DNA of 64,000 nucleotides from Turneriella parva DSM 21527. GTDB taxonomy: Bacteria > Spirochaetota > Leptospiria > Turneriellales > Turneriellaceae. The stretch's first letter is position 1. Each line of letters starts with the position of its first letter. This document shows positions 50,786 to 58,222 of this stretch, piece after piece. The stretch is taken from contig NC_018020.1 of assembly GCF_000266885.1 (NCBI RefSeq), forward strand, positions 496,001 to 560,000. Direction: 5' to 3'. Both the position numbers and the translations under genes were made by a program. The notes beneath the pieces are model-generated. The model was not told the origin of the DNA. It worked only from the letters and a program-made list of their open reading frames with translations, and made no database searches.

Positions 50786-51922
50786 TTGTAATAGTTTTTA
50801 CTTTATCTGACACTCTCTTAACAAAAAGGAGTGTTTATGACGACAGAACAGAAAATTATCAAGAACAAGGTTGGTCTGCTGAAACTGGCAGAGCAGCTGG
50901 GCAGCGTATCGAAAGCTTGCAAGGTTTTCGGTTACTCAAGAGACAGTTTCTACCGGTTTAAGGAGCTTTACGACAAGGGTGGCGAGCTCGCATTGCAGGA
51001 GATCAGCCGCAGGAAGCCTTTGCTGAAAAATCGTGTAGCTCCAGAGGTCGAGGAAGCGGTACGGGAAATTGCATTTCAATACCCCGCGTACGGTCAGGTT
51101 CGGGCGTCCAACGAGTTGCGCAAGATAGGTATCATCATCTCCCCTTTTGGCGTGCGCGGCGTTTGGCTGCGCCATGATCTTGCGACGTTTAAAAAACGGC
51201 TGAAATACCTTGAAGCGCGAATGGCTCAGGAAAAGGGGATCTTTACCGAGGCACAATTGGTTGCGCTCGAACGCGCAAAAGATGAGAAGGAAAGTCACGG
51301 TGAAATTGAAACGGAGCACCCTGGTTATTTGGGGTCACAAGACACGTTTTACGTGGGAAATATGAAGGGTGTGGGTAAAATTTATCAGCAGACCTTCATC
51401 GACACGTATTCGAAAGTCGCTTTTGCGAAACTCTATGATCGCAAGAATTCTCTGGTTTCAGCCGATATGCTTAACGACAGAGTCATCCCGTTTTTTGACG
51501 AGCATGAGATTCCGCTGTTGCGCGTTCTGACCGATCGTGGCAGCGAGTACTGTGGCAACCGGGAAGAGCACGATTATCAGCTGTATCTGGCCTTGGAGAA
51601 TATCGACCACACAAAAACCAAGGCCAAGAGCCCGCAGACGAACGGCATTTGTGAGCGCTTTCACCGGACTATATTGAATGAGTTTTACAATGTTGCATTC
51701 AGAAAGAAGGTTTACACTTCTTTGGAGCAATTGCAGGCAGACCTTGATGAGTGGATTTACGATTACAACACGCAGCGCACTCATCAGGGGAAATATTGCT
51801 TCGGCAAAACGCCTCTGGCAACATTCAAAGACTCGCTCAGTATAGCGAAAGACAAAATGCTGGATTTGAAATTACAGACAGCATGAAAATGGGTGTGTCA
51901 GGTCAAGTTCAGACTTTTACAA
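50786..51922 (+). mobile_element. IS481-family insertion sequence, about 1137 bp
   Basis: Inverted ends of about 28 bp: left TTGTAATAGTTTTTACTTTA and right (reverse complement) TTGTAAAAGTCTGAACTTGA, both ending CTGACAC. If the element starts at TGTAA, ATT flanks it on both sides (a possible 3-bp duplication). It interrupts the sequence just before an integrase fragment, which lacks its N-terminal half. Confidence 0.8.
50837..51886 (+). CDS. IS481-family transposase
   Basis: 349 residues. N-terminal HTH (KLAEQLGSVSKACKVFGYSRDSFYRFK) and an integrase core: GSQDTFYVGNMKGVGKIYQQTFIDTYSK with the second Asp region, VLTDRGSEYCGN with the catalytic Asp, and QTNGICERFHRTILNEFY with the Glu. The ATG at 50837 follows AAAGGAG. 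A GTG two codons earlier is less likely. It appears intact. Confidence 0.93.
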   Translation: MTTEQKIIKNKVGLLKLAEQLGSVSKACKVFGYSRDSFYRFKELYDKGGELALQEISRRKPLLKNRVAPEVEEAVREIAFQYPAYGQVRASNELRKIGIIISPFGVRGVWLRHDLATFKKRLKYLEARMAQEKGIFTEAQLVALERAKDEKESHGEIETEHPGYLGSQDTFYVGNMKGVGKIYQQTFIDTYSKVAFAKLYDRKNSLVSADMLNDRVIPFFDEHEIPLLRVLTDRGSEYCGNREEHDYQLYLALENIDHTKTKAKSPQTNGICERFHRTILNEFYNVAFRKKVYTSLEQLQADLDEWIYDYNTQRTHQGKYCFGKTPLATFKDSLSIAKDKMLDLKLQTA

Positions 51923-52198
51923 TTGTACGGTTCGAAGGTTTACTTGTTTGAATCGTCGCCGGGAAAACCTATCTCCCGGTTTACGGCCCATACGCTCTTG
52001 AGCCGCGCTGGCCGCAAAATCGGTCGGCGACTACACCCCCATATGCTGCGTCACACACGGGCAACAGATTTGCTCAACCGGGGTGAACCGCTCTCTTCAG
52101 TCGCCGCTTACATGGGGCATAGCTCGCCGGAAATTACGGCGCGGTTCTACCTGCACGGCCTGCCAAAAGCCAGCAGGATAATGAGCGGATTGGATTAA
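51923..52198 (+). pseudogene. Tyrosine recombinase (integrase) fragment, C-terminal end
   Basis: After the IS481 end the frame encodes LHPHMLRHTRATDLLNRGEPLSSVAAYMGHSSPEITARFYLHGLP, the HxxR, GHSS and Tyr parts of a phage-type integrase catalytic domain. The upstream half, with the first Arg and the core-binding domain, is missing, so this is a remnant. It shows that the region was once part of an integrating element; its attachment site is not recognisable here. Confidence 0.82.
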
Positions 52199-52646: not shown

Positions 52647-53786
52647 ATGCTCGAAGATAAGGCTTCGGCAGGGCGGGTCGCATTGAAAGTTCCCGATTTA
52701 TTTGCGCTCAAGCACATCGGTTTTTACCGAAATTTTCTCAATTTTGTGCATCAAGGCTTTGCGCCTAAGCTGCACGCCACTGCCGTCGGCCAGACATTAG
52801 AAAAGATAATTCTCACAGAAGATTACCGGAATTTACATCACTGGACTTTCTTTGAGAGCTATGTGGCCGAATACTTTTTGTCGCCATTGCTACTGCAATA
52901 CTTCAGCCCGTATCACAAAACGGCGTTTGGCGATGAAGGTATTGATCGCCGAAGTATGCATGCACATTCGGCCGTCTATCAAACTGTGGTACAGGTGAAG
53001 CTTCACAAAAACCAGATCGGCCACGATGAAATAACGAAGTTTCTCGGGGCCGTTGACCTTTTCGAGCGGAAGAACGGCAATCGCGCCAAAACCTACGGAG
53101 TATATATCACAGCGAGTGGGTATTCGGCACCGGTAGCAGAATTAGAGAGAGTCTACCGGCGGCCCGGTACGAAGCGTGCCCTGTTCTTGATCGATAGACG
53201 GAAACTATTGGACTATTTGCCGCTTTATCAGAAATTCTATGGTGACATACTGAAAAAGACAAAACAATTCAGGCAAGACGACTCTGAAGAAAATCGGCGT
53301 CATACAATTCATGCTTTCAGGGAACTGCACGATGAGTTTATCCTGAAGAATATTTCGTTTCTAAAGGAATCGTTTTCCGAGAAAGATACGCAGATACTCT
53401 TTAAGCGAAAGCGCAATTGCGAACAACTCTATATCAATGAGGGGCGTTACAAGGCGTTTACCCTTGGTCGCCATAAGATGCAGCTGTTGACCGAGGCTTT
53501 CGAGACGGCGAATCGGCGACCCTCTACGCTCCCATTGGATGAGAGCGCCCGTCTGGAGTTTTTCCAAAAAGTTAAAGAAGCTGGTATTGAAGCCGACGCT
53601 GGTGAGATTCAGGATTTCTTCGATAGAAAATTCATGGGTCTATTGGAGAAGCATGCGTTGCATATGAAGGTCATACATGCGCTGATGGGCGACGTAAAGG
53701 AATCCCAGACGAAAACCCGTAAGGGGGCCGCTCTGCGAAAAACGAAATTAACAAAAACGAAGAAAAGTGTAAGGAGAAAAATATGA
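52647..53786 (+). CDS. Mrr-type restriction-like endonuclease
   Basis: 379 residues. Residues about 60-160 carry the PD-(D/E)XK pattern of Mrr-like proteins: TFFESYVAEYFLSPLLLQYF, KTAFGDEGIDRRSM with Asp-Glu-Gly-Ile-Asp, and VYQTVVQVKLHKNQIGHDEI with the Gln-x-Lys, then FLGAVDLF. The C-terminal 200 residues are a separate helical domain of unknown kind ending in a Lys-rich tail (KTKLTKTKKSVRRK). Mrr enzymes cut methylated DNA. It overlaps the start of the next gene by four bases. Confidence 0.75.
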   Translation: MLEDKASAGRVALKVPDLFALKHIGFYRNFLNFVHQGFAPKLHATAVGQTLEKIILTEDYRNLHHWTFFESYVAEYFLSPLLLQYFSPYHKTAFGDEGIDRRSMHAHSAVYQTVVQVKLHKNQIGHDEITKFLGAVDLFERKNGNRAKTYGVYITASGYSAPVAELERVYRRPGTKRALFLIDRRKLLDYLPLYQKFYGDILKKTKQFRQDDSEENRRHTIHAFRELHDEFILKNISFLKESFSEKDTQILFKRKRNCEQLYINEGRYKAFTLGRHKMQLLTEAFETANRRPSTLPLDESARLEFFQKVKEAGIEADAGEIQDFFDRKFMGLLEKHALHMKVIHALMGDVKESQTKTRKGAALRKTKLTKTKKSVRRKI

Positions 53787-54094
53787 AAACAGCAGGTGCA
53801 ATATTAGCATTGGTCTTGGCGATTTTTGGGAGCATCATAGCATTGGCAGATTTATGGTCTGATAAGGCTGCTCTGACCGCTCTACTGGGTCTCAGCTTCT
53901 TATCGGTGCAATTCATACTGGGGATAGTCAGCTTTTTCAAAGCCAAGGCTGCTGGCATGGGTATCATCGTGACGAGTGCAATTATGGTCGTCATCAGTCT
54001 ATTGACTTCTGCAAAATTTACTGGATTCGTTGAGTTGTTAATGCTTGGTGGTGGAGTCATGGTATTGATTGGAGCTAAGAAAGATGCAAATTGA
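53783..54094 (+). CDS. Small membrane protein with four hydrophobic segments
   Basis: 103 residues, mostly hydrophobic: AGAILALVLAIFGSIIALAD, LTALLGLSFLSVQFILGIVS, MGIIVTSAIMVVISLLT, FVELLMLGGGVMVLIG. It starts by ATGA overlap with the nuclease gene, and ends 11 bases into the following gene. No family is recognised. A nuclease, membrane protein and exported protein in tight order may form one system. Confidence 0.65.
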   Translation: MKTAGAILALVLAIFGSIIALADLWSDKAALTALLGLSFLSVQFILGIVSFFKAKAAGMGIIVTSAIMVVISLLTSAKFTGFVELLMLGGGVMVLIGAKKDAN

Positions 54095-54833: not shown

Positions 54834-54853
54834 GGGGAGGCCGAAGCCTCCCC
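54834..54853 (-). terminator. Rho-independent terminator of the DUF932 gene train
   Basis: GGGGAGGC-CGAA-GCCTCCCC forms an 8-bp GC-rich stem. On the minus strand it is followed by a run of T (TTTTTTTATTTC). It may also end the plus-strand exported gene at 54827. Confidence 0.82.
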
Positions 54854-54861
54854 ATAAACTC

Positions 54862-55575
54862 TCAAGCAGCAAATGAATTGGCCAGATCGAACAGGGCCTG
54901 ATTCAATTTCACGGTTCGATCTACATTTCGCAAGGGTCTGATCTTGTTGCCAGACCGGTCATAGAAACGACCGTTCAGCAGTTTTTCTTGCGTGATGTTG
55001 AGGGTTCGCCATAAATCCTCACCTGCATCACTCGGCCGGCGCGGTGCCAGAAAGCGTGCGAGATCAATATCAGGCAGTTTTTCTGGAAACCGTAGCAACA
55101 GAGCAGACTTGGCGAATACTAAACGTTCGGCGATTTTTAGCTCACGACTCTTAAACCGCTCGACAGAATGCATCAGGCCCGGTAGTTTCTCTACGAACTC
55201 TGACACGGCATATTGCACCGATTCGTAGCTGTAGCTGATGTGGCGAATTGATATGGCAGAAAATAACGATTCTGCAATTATCAATCCATTACCACAAACC
55301 AGCCTGAACACGCCCGCCATCAGACGAAAGCTCGAAAGCCCGTCATGGCTATTGACCATGACAATTTCAGGGACTTCATCCCCTGAAATATCAAGGCGTC
55401 GAAAGCGAATCAAGTGTTTTGCCACATCGCTGTGTCGATTGCCTATGATCGTTGCCGGATACCAGCCAAGGGTTTGTAGATCGTCGATAAGCCGCACCGT
55501 CGGAATAAACGTGTATTTCGACGAGACACCTATCGGTCGCTCTGCGTAAACCGCCGGCACTAATTGTTGTTTCAT
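54862..55575 (-). CDS. DUF932 protein (plasmid and phage type)
   Basis: 237 residues from the ATG at 55575, which follows ACAGGAGGT. The family pattern is visible: KYTFIPTVRLIDDLQTLGWYP, HLIRFRRLDISGDEVPEIVM, SHDGLSSFRLMAGVFRLVCGNGLI and LNITQEKLLNGRFYDRSG. DUF932 genes are common on conjugative plasmids and phages; function is not settled. It is the last gene of the minus-strand train. A longer frame to 55602 lies in the leader hairpin. Confidence 0.82.
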   Translation of the reverse strand: MKQQLVPAVYAERPIGVSSKYTFIPTVRLIDDLQTLGWYPATIIGNRHSDVAKHLIRFRRLDISGDEVPEIVMVNSHDGLSSFRLMAGVFRLVCGNGLIIAESLFSAISIRHISYSYESVQYAVSEFVEKLPGLMHSVERFKSRELKIAERLVFAKSALLLRFPEKLPDIDLARFLAPRRPSDAGEDLWRTLNITQEKLLNGRFYDRSGNKIRPLRNVDRTVKLNQALFDLANSFAA

Positions 55576-55600
55576 ATAGAAACCTCCTGTACTTACGTAC

Positions 55601-55631
55601 ATCCCCTTAACGGGGATTCGGTTCTGTTCAA
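55601..55631 (-). promoter_or_regulatory. Modular leader element a, before DUF932
   Basis: Minus strand: TGAACAG-N4-GAATCCCC-GTTAA-GGGGAT, then a second hairpin GTAC-GTAA-GTAC, then AGGAGG and ATG. The TGA is the stop of the DUF6573-like gene. Confidence 0.7.
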
Positions 55632-56002
55632 TAATCTTCTGGAAGCATGATCGTTATTGTCGGCTCAGGCGTATCAGCGGGGCCGCAGACCATAAATACC
55701 TCATGGATATTCTTCACCACCGCTGCGCCAATAGTGACCTTGGCCTTGAGACCGCTTTCACCACGCGCTCTGCGCGCTTCGGACGCGCACGCGAATAGCA
55801 GGTTGCGTACGACGCCTCGATAATCTGTGAGGTCATGCTCATTGGCAACAGCCCCTTCGATCAGCCTAAAAACCTTGTCGGAGAGAATGACGGGATATTT
55901 GAAATACACCCGTGAAATTTCATTCGGTACCAGATGCAGCACGCCATCTTCAATTGCCTGCGCCTGAGAGTACCTTGAAATCACATCTTCTTCACTAAAC
56001 AT
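55628..56002 (-). CDS. DUF6573-like plasmid-type protein
   Basis: 124 residues. The opening MFSEEDVISRYSQAQAIEDGVLHLV, then KYPVILSDKVFRLIEGAV, matches DUF6573-type proteins of plasmids and phages. The ATG at 56002 follows AAGGAG; a longer frame reaches 56074 through the leader and is unlikely. Function unknown. Confidence 0.72.
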   Translation of the reverse strand: MFSEEDVISRYSQAQAIEDGVLHLVPNEISRVYFKYPVILSDKVFRLIEGAVANEHDLTDYRGVVRNLLFACASEARRARGESGLKAKVTIGAAVVKNIHEVFMVCGPADTPEPTITIMLPEDY

Positions 56003-56043
56003 ACTGACTCCTTGCCTTGTGCATGCTCGTGCGCACAGGGCAA

Positions 56044-56074
56044 GCCCGCCGTAGCGGGATTCGAGTCTTTTCAA
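56044..56074 (-). promoter_or_regulatory. Modular leader element b, before the DUF6573-like gene
   Basis: Minus strand: TGAAAAGACTCGAATCCCGC-TACG-GCGGG, then TTGCCCTGTGC...GCACAAGGCAA as a second hairpin with one mismatch, then GGAG. The TGA is the stop of the small zinc-ribbon gene. Confidence 0.72.
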
Positions 56075-56175
56075 TCTGGGTTAATCTTCACAAGTTCGAC
56101 AAGACACTCCTTGCAGAAGCCGAATTGGCCAAACAGAAAGAAGTATCGTTTTTGGCAGCTATAGCATGTTCGCAT
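56071..56175 (-). CDS. 34-residue zinc-ribbon protein
   Basis: Too small for usual gene calling but well supported. It reads MRTCYSCQKRYFFL, then a Phe/Gly spacer and FCKECLVELV, placing two CxxC pairs 16 residues apart as in a zinc ribbon. The ATG has GGAGG six bases upstream and is preceded by leader element c; the stop is the TGA of the next leader. Function unknown, probably a DNA- or protein-binding zinc finger. Confidence 0.72.
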   Translation of the reverse strand: MRTCYSCQKRYFFLFGQFGFCKECLVELVKINPD

Positions 56176-56195
56176 TGAATCCTCCGCGTCGATGA

Positions 56196-56230
56196 CGCAT
56201 CCCGGTGGGGCCGGGATTCATTGCTTTTCA
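56196..56230 (-). promoter_or_regulatory. Modular leader element c, before the zinc-ribbon gene
   Basis: Minus strand: TGAAAAGCAATGAATCCCGG-CCCCA-CCGGGAT, then GCGTC-ATC-GACGC as second hairpin, then GGAGG. The TGA is the stop of the gene at 56228. Confidence 0.72.
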
Positions 56231-56530
56231 TGGGGCCGCCAGAAGCCGGCCCGAAAGTAATGATTCAATCTGCACCTGAATTGCTTCGCGCTCGGCCTCC
56301 TCGCCATACTTCTCCGCGTAGTTCAATGCAATCTGCAAGCCACGGGCGAGCCCGACAGTCAGAAAGACCGTCTTGCGTTCGCCGTTAGCTCTGACTGCAT
56401 TCAGCCAAGTAGATACCGGATCAGATGCCGTGTCAAAGAAGACTTCGAGGCCGTCGGCCCGCGTTGCCTGCACATACCGGCCCTTGTCGATGACTTGAGT
56501 ACAGCGTGAGGTAATTTCTAAAAGGTTCAT
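56228..56530 (-). CDS. Small protein of unknown function in the plasmid-type train
   Basis: 100 residues: MNLLEITSRCTQVIDKGRYV, FFDTASDPVSTWLNAVRANG, VFLTVGLARGLQIALNYAEK and a helical end. No signal or membrane segment and no recognised family. The ATG is preceded by AGGAG and the short leader element d. Confidence 0.65.
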   Translation of the reverse strand: MNLLEITSRCTQVIDKGRYVQATRADGLEVFFDTASDPVSTWLNAVRANGERKTVFLTVGLARGLQIALNYAEKYGEEAEREAIQVQIESLLSGRLLAAP

Positions 56531-56539
56531 AGTCGCTCC

Positions 56540-56562
56540 TTGGGTTGTTCACCCAGAGATTC
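56540..56562 (-). promoter_or_regulatory. Modular leader element d, before the gene at 56530
   Basis: Minus strand: GAATCTC, then TGGGT-GAACA-ACCCA hairpin, then AGGAG. It lacks the TGAAAAG box and the first hairpin, so it is shorter than a-c, e and f. Its right side (56565-56590) resembles the start of element g, suggesting a damaged copy. Confidence 0.6.
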
Positions 56563-56664
56563 TATGCCAGATATGCAAACCCGCCAGAAGAGATGGCAAC
56601 CGAACGCTGTACTGAATTATTCGGCGTGACGCCACCGATCGCGACCGGAAATATCTCCTCATCT

Positions 56665-57654
56665 ATGGCAAAGAAATTCAGCTTCGCAATCGTGGCGCTC
56701 ACGCTTGCAATTACTATTAGCGCCGATGACCGAAAATATTCGAGCCTCGCAAAGTCCATTACCAAACAGGTATTGCAGATTATCGCTGACAAAGGCGACC
56801 CCAAAGGAAAGAATTACAACCTCGCTGTAAGCATTGTATCAGCAAATAAGAAAAAGATAAGCAAAAAAGCCGAGCAGAGCATGGGCGACTTTGAAAATTT
56901 AGTAAAAATGGATTTGGCGAGCAGCCCCAAAGTTGTTATCACTGAGACAGACCTCACCGCAAACCCCGCAGTGATGAAGATCATGGAGAACCAGCAATTA
57001 CTCGGCACTGCCGGCAAATCAAAGATTACGAGCGGAGACGATGCGTTTCAAATCGCCATGCCCGATTTCTTCGTCACCATCGTCGTACCAGAAACCTTGG
57101 ATACGGCAGACATCAAAGTGCATAAGGTTAATTATAGTCTACTCGGGGCATTCAATGTTGACCTAAAGCCAGTAACCGAAAGGGCCGCCGCCATGGAGAC
57201 GACTTTTGAAAAGCTTCGACCGACTGCTATTCAAGCGAGTTCAATATTGCCGCCGACGACCAACTACACTTACGGCCCTGAAATGGTAACTGACGATTAT
57301 TTCAATTCAGTTTGGGCCGAGGGCAGCAAGGGAGATGGGATCGGCGATTACCTGCTCTTCAAGTTTGGCGGAACGCACACATTTCACAAATTTGAGATCG
57401 TGAATGGCTTTTCTGCCCTACATAAAGTATTCGGTGATCTTTACTTCTTGAATAATCGCGTCAAAGGTTTGCGCATCGAATTTGAAGATGGTGCTGAAAC
57501 AGTCATATTCAATGATAAAGTCAAGGGGTACCAGACAGTGGCGTTCAACAGAGCGCACCGATCTTCATGGGCCAAGATCAGCATCACTTCTGTGCACAAA
57601 GGTAAGCGGTGGGATGACACCTGTATTGCGGAGGCTCATTTTTTCGGACGGTAA
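56665..57654 (+). CDS. Exported protein with a discoidin/NADase-type glycan-binding-like domain
   Basis: 329 residues from the ATG at 56665 (signal MAKKFSFAIVALTLAITISA); a frame to 56545 precedes it but lacks a signal. The middle is helical, and the last 130 residues (DDYFNSVWAEGSKGDGIGDY, FKFGGTHTFHKFEIVNGF, RVKGLRIEFEDGAETVIFND) have the sandwich pattern of F5/8C-type or NADase-type glycan-binding domains, frequent in Leptospira exported proteins. It runs opposite to the neighbouring genes and sits between leader elements d and e, as if inserted. Confidence 0.62.
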   Translation: MAKKFSFAIVALTLAITISADDRKYSSLAKSITKQVLQIIADKGDPKGKNYNLAVSIVSANKKKISKKAEQSMGDFENLVKMDLASSPKVVITETDLTANPAVMKIMENQQLLGTAGKSKITSGDDAFQIAMPDFFVTIVVPETLDTADIKVHKVNYSLLGAFNVDLKPVTERAAAMETTFEKLRPTAIQASSILPPTTNYTYGPEMVTDDYFNSVWAEGSKGDGIGDYLLFKFGGTHTFHKFEIVNGFSALHKVFGDLYFLNNRVKGLRIEFEDGAETVIFNDKVKGYQTVAFNRAHRSSWAKISITSVHKGKRWDDTCIAEAHFFGR

Positions 57655-57686
57655 GCGTTGGGCCGATAGACACTTCGCACAACTGG

Positions 57687-57719
57687 CGCATCCGCCGAAG
57701 CGGATTCAAACCTTTTCAA
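57687..57719 (-). promoter_or_regulatory. Modular leader element e, after the DUF4313-like gene
   Basis: Minus strand: TGAAAAGGTTTGAATCCGC-TTCG-GCGGAT. The TGA is the stop of the DUF4313-like gene. Unlike the others no minus gene follows, because the plus-strand gene at 56665-57654 intervenes. Confidence 0.68.
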
Positions 57720-58012
57720 AGCAGTGACTTGCAAACGGGAATATGTACGAATCCCGTGGCAATGCTCAGTGCGGGCCGCTCGACGATGCCATTTTCAATG
57801 AGTACCTCAAGCAGACCTTCGTTCTCTGAATAATTCTTGATGGTCACATGCCCCTCAGGAATTGCCTCTCGAGTATTCACCGTGGCCGTCATGAATGGCT
57901 CATCATCATCGGTAACCAACTCTAAGGCGACTCGGTTGTTTTCGGCGTATTTGCTTTTCCAGATGGTAAGCTCCTCGCCCAAGAAACTTATTTTTCTTCT
58001 AGTATTGGTCAT
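57716..58012 (-). CDS. DUF4313-like plasmid-type protein
   Basis: 98 residues. LGEELTIWKSKYAENNRVALELVTDDDEPFMTATVN has the pattern of DUF4313 proteins found on plasmids: a strand, then a KYA-N-R-A-L core. The ATG at 58012 has GGAGG five bases upstream, preceded by leader f. Function unknown. Confidence 0.65.
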   Translation of the reverse strand: MTNTRRKISFLGEELTIWKSKYAENNRVALELVTDDDEPFMTATVNTREAIPEGHVTIKNYSENEGLLEVLIENGIVERPALSIATGFVHIPVCKSLL

Positions 58013-58030
58013 AGTACCTCCACGCCAATA

Positions 58031-58066
58031 GGCGTGTCCCGTTCTGGCGGGATTCTATTCTTGTCA
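58031..58066 (-). promoter_or_regulatory. Modular leader element f, before the DUF4313-like gene
   Basis: Minus strand: TGACAAGAATAGAATCCCG-CCAGAA-CGGGA, then CACGCC-TATT-GGCGTG as second hairpin immediately before GGAGG. The TGA ends no visible frame, so an upstream gene may have decayed. Confidence 0.7.
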
Positions 58067-58184
58067 TGGTCATGCCTGCGACCGGAGCCGAATACAACCT
58101 ACGGCCGTGGCAAAATGCCGAAAACTGCCGAACACTTAGTTAGAGCTCGGAAGTGGGTCACGTGGCTTGAAATTCTTTATGCGA

Positions 58185-58222
58185 GATTTGCAAACCCGCC
58201 GCGCCGGATCGAGCCGTTCTAA
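58185..58222 (-). promoter_or_regulatory. Modular leader element g, diverged copy after the DUF4365 gene
   Basis: Minus strand: AGAACGGCTCGATCCGGCGCGGCGGGTTTGC; it has the GATCC and GC-rich fold but not the full box. It lies 6 bases past the DUF4365 stop; no supported gene follows it before element f. Confidence 0.4.

Follow-up and report, generated by a model that had tools for sequence, protein, structure and literature searches.

How are small, unrelated genes joined in one operon, and do the structured segments between them act in the mRNA or in the DNA? The question is raised by a minus-strand gene train of Turneriella parva DSM 21527, located at 54.8-58.2 kb of the window, i.e., the 64,000-nucleotide stretch analyzed here (bases 496001-560000 of the 4,384,015-bp contig NC_018020.1; positions below are those of the window). 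In order, the train comprises a 98-aa open reading frame (ORF), an intervening plus-strand gene, a 100-aa ORF, a 35-codon ORF, a DUF6573 gene, a DUF932 gene and an intrinsic terminator. The original prediction described its intergenic segments as repeated modular leaders, composed of a stop-codon box, GAATCC, hairpins and a ribosome binding site, and direct reading of the letters confirmed this description. The structure is real, well supported and so far found at one locus only. We tentatively regard the leaders as members of one family, structured mRNA segments that lie between cistrons, recur in one operon and would control the translation start of each small gene, a reading that we hold to be a serious possibility rather than a probable one.

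Architecture and pairing of the leaders

The full form of the leader, present in e1, e2, e3 and e4, starts with the box TGA(A/C)(A/C)AG, which is separated from GAATCC by four variable bases; two successive hairpins (P2, then P3), a Shine-Dalgarno sequence and an ATG complete it. These four leaders precede four unrelated genes (DUF932, DUF6573, the 35-codon zinc-ribbon-like ORF and the 98-aa ORF). The copies, together with an associated repeat, are the following, with hairpins given by their two arms:

55576-55630, minus strand: leader e1, before DUF932; box TGAACAG (55624-55630), AACC, GAATCC (55614-55619), P2 ATCCCC/GGGGAT (55601-55617), P3 GTAC/GTAC (55589-55600), Shine-Dalgarno AGGAGG (55583-55588)
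56003-56073, minus strand: leader e2, before DUF6573; box TGAAAAG (56067-56073), ACTC, GAATCC (56057-56062), P2 CCCGC/GCGGG (56045-56058), long P3 CTTGCC/GGCAAG (56011-56044), Shine-Dalgarno AAGGAG (56008-56013), overlapping the end of P3
56176-56230, minus strand: leader e3, before the 35-codon ORF; box TGAAAAG (56224-56230), CAAT, GAATCC (56214-56219), P2 ATCCCGG/CCGGGAT (56199-56217), P3 GCGTC/GACGC (56186-56198), Shine-Dalgarno GGAGG (56181-56185)
58013-58066, minus strand: leader e4, before the 98-aa ORF; box TGACAAG (58060-58066), AATA, GAATCC (58050-58055), P2 TCCCG/CGGGA (58037-58052), P3 ACGCC/GGCGT (58022-58035), Shine-Dalgarno GGAGG (58017-58021)
56531-56585, minus strand: leader e5, before the 100-aa ORF; 23-bp repeat (56563-56585), GAATC (56558-56562), P3 TGGGT/ACCCA (56541-56555), Shine-Dalgarno AAGGAG (56536-56541); box and P2 absent
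57672-57718, minus strand: leader copy e6, after the 98-aa ORF and without a following gene; box TGAAAAG with the stop codon of that ORF (57712-57718), GTTT, GAATCC (57702-57707), P2 ATCCGC/GCGGAT (57690-57705), weak P3 GCGC/GTGC (57677-57689), degenerate GAAG
58178-58200, minus strand: second copy of the 23-bp repeat, 91% identical to the copy at 56563-56585

In e1, e2, e3 and e6 the TGA of the box is the stop codon of the preceding ORF, and in all four the distance from this stop codon to P2 is exactly 10 nt. Copy e6 is a decayed leader that lost its gene. The leaders listed in the original prediction are real, but e5 has neither the box nor the first hairpin, and the plus-strand gene at 56665-57654 lies between e6 and e5. 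Likewise, the second hairpin it placed before the ribosome binding site in four elements is present, but the list was incomplete: e5 and, weakly, e6 carry one as well.

One copy of the 23-bp repeat immediately precedes e5, and the other lies about 110 nt upstream of e4. Their local alignment score is 38, compared with a shuffle maximum of 26, and elsewhere in the genome only matches to the core of the repeat, with 3 mismatches, occur. The copy at 58178-58200 is possibly a remnant of a duplicated, e5-type leader, or else a (duplicated) promoter region.

Several lines of evidence place this architecture beyond chance. The 4.41-Mb genome contains the pattern TGAANAG-N3-5-GAATCC four times, always in the train and within 2.1 kb. 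In a covariation alignment that was made by hand and padded with N to put the hairpins in register, a procedure which favours structure, 96% of the cells were paired, versus 74% in shuffles. The claim that the arms differ while pairing is kept, as covariation within the locus, was borne out: both hairpins covary, with 7 of the 12 pairs changed on both sides (reached by one of 500 shuffles), and the covariation score was 0.417 as opposed to 0.111 in the shuffles, none of the 500 reaching the observed value. When the partner was slid by 1-3 columns, the pairing signal was lost. Such compensatory changes inside one locus are an unusually clear sign, from a single genome, of selection on structure.

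The predicted position of the structure, between the stop codon and the Shine-Dalgarno sequence, was equally supported, since P3 abuts the latter far above background. Five of five leaders, compared with 6 of 63 background ORFs, have a hairpin of 4 bp or more that ends at the Shine-Dalgarno sequence; for 5 bp or more, the counts are three of five and 1 of 63. A longer loop was permitted for e2 in this count. The spacers of e1-e4 also fold better than dinucleotide shuffles (z from -1.9 to -3.7). The spacer of e6 shows no such excess (z -0.5), in keeping with its being a decayed copy.

Occurrence beyond the locus and related systems

A covariance model (R1) was built from the five boxed copies, all of which it recovers. 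The wide searches with R1 scored only the top candidates of each genome, such that weak copies could be missed; within this scope, no convincing copy besides this locus was found in 48 genomes of the class, nor in 393 Spirochaetota genomes (the window genome and 392 others). Single weak matches in genomes G045 and G258 were judged not credible, that of G258 without inspection. Ten plasmid and phage records carrying related genes yielded no convincing copy with R1, and DNA BLAST of plasmids and phages did not recover the train, the only match being a short one inside DUF932. In 40 relatives, TGAANAG-N3-5-GAATCC gave scattered matches and no cluster comparable to the train. Six pattern matches in viral contigs were weak, the top-scoring one lying within an apparent coding sequence. 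The leader is absent from the DUF932 and DUF6573 loci of other Spirochaetota and from two DUF932 paralogues in the same genome. The leader module is so far confined to one locus in what could be searched; this lack of further copies is one half of what the original prediction had named as refuting it, the other being no effect of breaking the stem.

Two observations on other DUF932 loci were made along the way. One of the paralogues in the same genome (L084, 7170-7195) has a 5-bp hairpin, GTATG/CATAC, that ends at the Shine-Dalgarno sequence and lies within the end of the preceding ORF. Another DUF932 gene train is present on Nitrosococcus plasmids (L039, 2465-5010; L041, 7249-9830), where a hairpin comes after the end of a gene and precedes a Shine-Dalgarno sequence; GGGCACAGG-like arms recur in some of these hairpins, and most of them carry the U-rich tails typical of terminators.

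According to the original prediction, no element of this form has been described. An Rfam scan of 46-64 kb gave no match reaching the gathering score and nothing near the leaders, but a similar layout is known from the SAS/ESAS leaders of cluster K mycobacteriophages, which are the nearest described kind. These are short repeated leaders that lie directly upstream of start codons, contain the Shine-Dalgarno sequence and, in about half of the cases, follow an inverted repeat just before SAS; they precede genes of unrelated families, are confined to one phage group, and their function is not established (PMC3203893). Like them, the present leaders are repeated before unrelated genes, with a hairpin adjoining the Shine-Dalgarno sequence. 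SAS, however, has a 13-mer as its consensus, and the 17-bp arms of ESAS are conserved in sequence, whereas here the arms vary with pairing kept, hairpins come in twos, and a stop-codon box precedes them at a fixed distance. Examined by eye, the 13-mer GGGATAGGAGCCC (consensus from PMC3203893; up to 2 mismatches) is absent before the start codons of our leaders, which read AGGAGG, AAGGAG or GGAGG. The conserved 17-bp imperfect inverted repeats of ESAS are also lacking; stems here are 4-7 bp, of a different sequence in each copy. With both defining features missing, the leaders are not members of SAS/ESAS, although their mode of action may be alike.

Translational coupling by RNA unfolding, as in rpmI-rplT and f1 VII-IX, involves structure between stop and start that controls the downstream gene, and a spacing of about +50 nt is known (PMC12548453). 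The cases named there are single gene pairs, whereas here one structural family repeats along a train. Integron attC sites, too, are repeated structured elements that separate small unrelated genes in the vicinity of a tyrosine recombinase. The leaders differ from them in lacking an R''/R' core pair and in having two hairpins and a Shine-Dalgarno sequence; nearby, in place of a clear integron integrase, lies only a 101-aa tyrosine-recombinase fragment. The attC core pair RYYYAAC...GTTRRRY (about 55-145 bp) gave a single regular-expression match, at 57543-57663, mostly inside the plus-strand gene. Intrinsic terminators between the genes were likewise rejected: no U-run follows P2 or P3 on the coding strand, and in the train only the terminator after DUF932 qualifies.

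The promoter-early stem-loop (PeSL) cassettes of T4-type phages are repeated intergenic hairpins among small accessory genes, proposed to aid gene shuffling, and contain a promoter and a stem-loop. The present leaders, in contrast, carry a Shine-Dalgarno sequence and lack both a consensus promoter and a U-run behind P2.

The gene train and its genomic setting

The genome comprises 4,409,302 bp in two contigs; T. parva has a chromosome and a plasmid (PMC3746428). From about 46 kb of the window onward, the G+C content drops from about 0.53 to 0.45-0.49, and this region contains an IS1595-like and an rve-type transposase ORF, a tyrosine-recombinase fragment, and Mrr- and GmrSD-type restriction genes; it is a mobile-looking region, of the mobile or defence island type. 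The features of the train are:

54834-54853, minus strand: intrinsic terminator after DUF932, GGGGAGGC-TTCG-GCCTCCCC then CT7; end of the transcription unit
54862-55575, minus strand: DUF932 gene, 237 aa (Pfam PF06067, E 6.9e-28)
55628-56002, minus strand: DUF6573 gene, 124 aa (Pfam PF20213, E 3.3e-15)
56071-56178, minus strand: short zinc-ribbon-like ORF, 34-35 aa, two CxxC pairs in its translation, no family match
56228-56530, minus strand: 100-aa ORF, no family above the cut-off
57716-58012, minus strand: 98-aa ORF, with relatives on plasmids and in PHROG 37545

Plasmid relatives exist for the DUF932, DUF6573 and 98-aa proteins, and two of the three match phage families. The plus-strand gene, which opposes the direction of the train, codes for a secreted-looking protein with an NADase-translocation F5/8-type domain. 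The only recombinase sequence of the integrase kind near the train is the C-terminal fragment of a tyrosine recombinase (51893-52198, plus strand, 101 aa), beside a transposase ORF and about 3 kb away. A small membrane-protein gene (53783-54094) adjoins the train and, by eye and unaligned, resembles one near DUF932 in another genome of the class (L086, 13045-13362).

Possible roles of the leaders

The leaders most likely act in the mRNA, on the translation of each cistron. The fixed stop-to-P2 distance, the contact between P3 and the Shine-Dalgarno sequence, and the fact that e5 has neither box nor P2 point to a role in the translation of successive cistrons, and the constant orientation from stop to start and the terminator at the end of the train lend further support. 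Among the readings, we prefer a hand-over from termination to initiation, which is plausible on the basis of anatomy. A ribosome terminating at the box would halt just short of P2; P2 and P3 would fold away the spacer of 30-50 nt and bring the Shine-Dalgarno sequence, held by P3 at the hairpin edge, close to it. The nearby terminating ribosome, or its released 30S subunit, may thus be helped to start the next gene. Because e5 has no same-strand gene directly ahead, its retention of only P3 and the Shine-Dalgarno sequence would be expected if box and P2 serve this hand-over. It is unlikely, in our estimate, that the mobile island repeats a hand-over module between unrelated small genes, such that any gene in the train would be translated by ribosomes passed on from the previous one.

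Several points weigh against translational control by hand-over. Leader e4 has a box and P2, but its TGA ends no recognizable ORF. Covering the stop region with a ribosome in the folding calculation did not make the Shine-Dalgarno sequence clearly easier to open, except in e3, and a library screen cited by a 2025 review (PMC12548453) found coupling to be reduced by structure immediately behind the stop codon. The paired cells of the alignment contain no G-U pair, so that a hairpin at the DNA level would fit too, and a single locus offers few copies (six). The effect reported in the review and the minor influence of masking would suit an insulating role, in which P2, sitting directly behind the stop codon, halts ribosomes that scan or read on, and P3, together with a strong Shine-Dalgarno sequence as seen in e1-e5, provides independent initiation, allowing the small genes to work in any order. 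This explanation is unlikely, though a live rival of hand-over; it accounts neither for the conserved box bases beyond the stop codon and the GAA before P2 nor for e4, which has no recognizable upstream gene to be insulated from. Conservation of precisely these unpaired letters (the box and the GAA of GAATCC), while the stems vary, would be expected of a common site at which a trans-acting regulator, an RNA-binding protein or small RNA, reads the box or GAATCC beside a hairpin and represses or activates the whole train jointly; such a role is suspected for the similarly laid out SAS/ESAS. No candidate regulator was identified and e5 has neither box nor P2, and we regard joint regulation as improbable, though likewise a live rival.

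The modular exchange site suggested in the original prediction found little support. Hairpins in single-stranded DNA, acting like attC as sites of exchange or insertion for swapping small genes, would fit the leader common to unrelated genes, the 1-kb plus-strand gene that breaks the train between e6 and e5, the recombinase fragment about 3 kb off and the purely Watson-Crick stems. Yet none of the leaders has attC core sites arranged with the required geometry, the copies have no arms in common, the orientation is always stop to start with a Shine-Dalgarno sequence, and copies elsewhere were not found in the genomes, plasmids and phages searched; we rate such exchange sites as very unlikely. 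An outer stem (P1) is only suggested and serves as a lead: the four variable bases may pair at or after the Shine-Dalgarno sequence (e1 AACC/GGTT, e2 GACTC/GAGTC, e4 ATAG/CTAT, e5 CATAG/CTATG), forming a three-way junction that would keep the start site hidden for as long as no terminating ribosome sits on the box. The stem is present in the lowest-energy folds of e1 and e2, and for five copies just 4 of the 120 arm permutations, counting the true one, pair as well as the own arms or better; with e6 added, however, the count was 36 of 720, e4 and e5 pair better with the arms of other copies, and masking the box frees the Shine-Dalgarno sequence only slightly. We give such a switch very little weight.

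If the leaders are a generic junction between genes, they would illustrate how mobile islands maintain the expression of unrelated small genes whatever their order, and would constitute a compact, testable intercistronic part.

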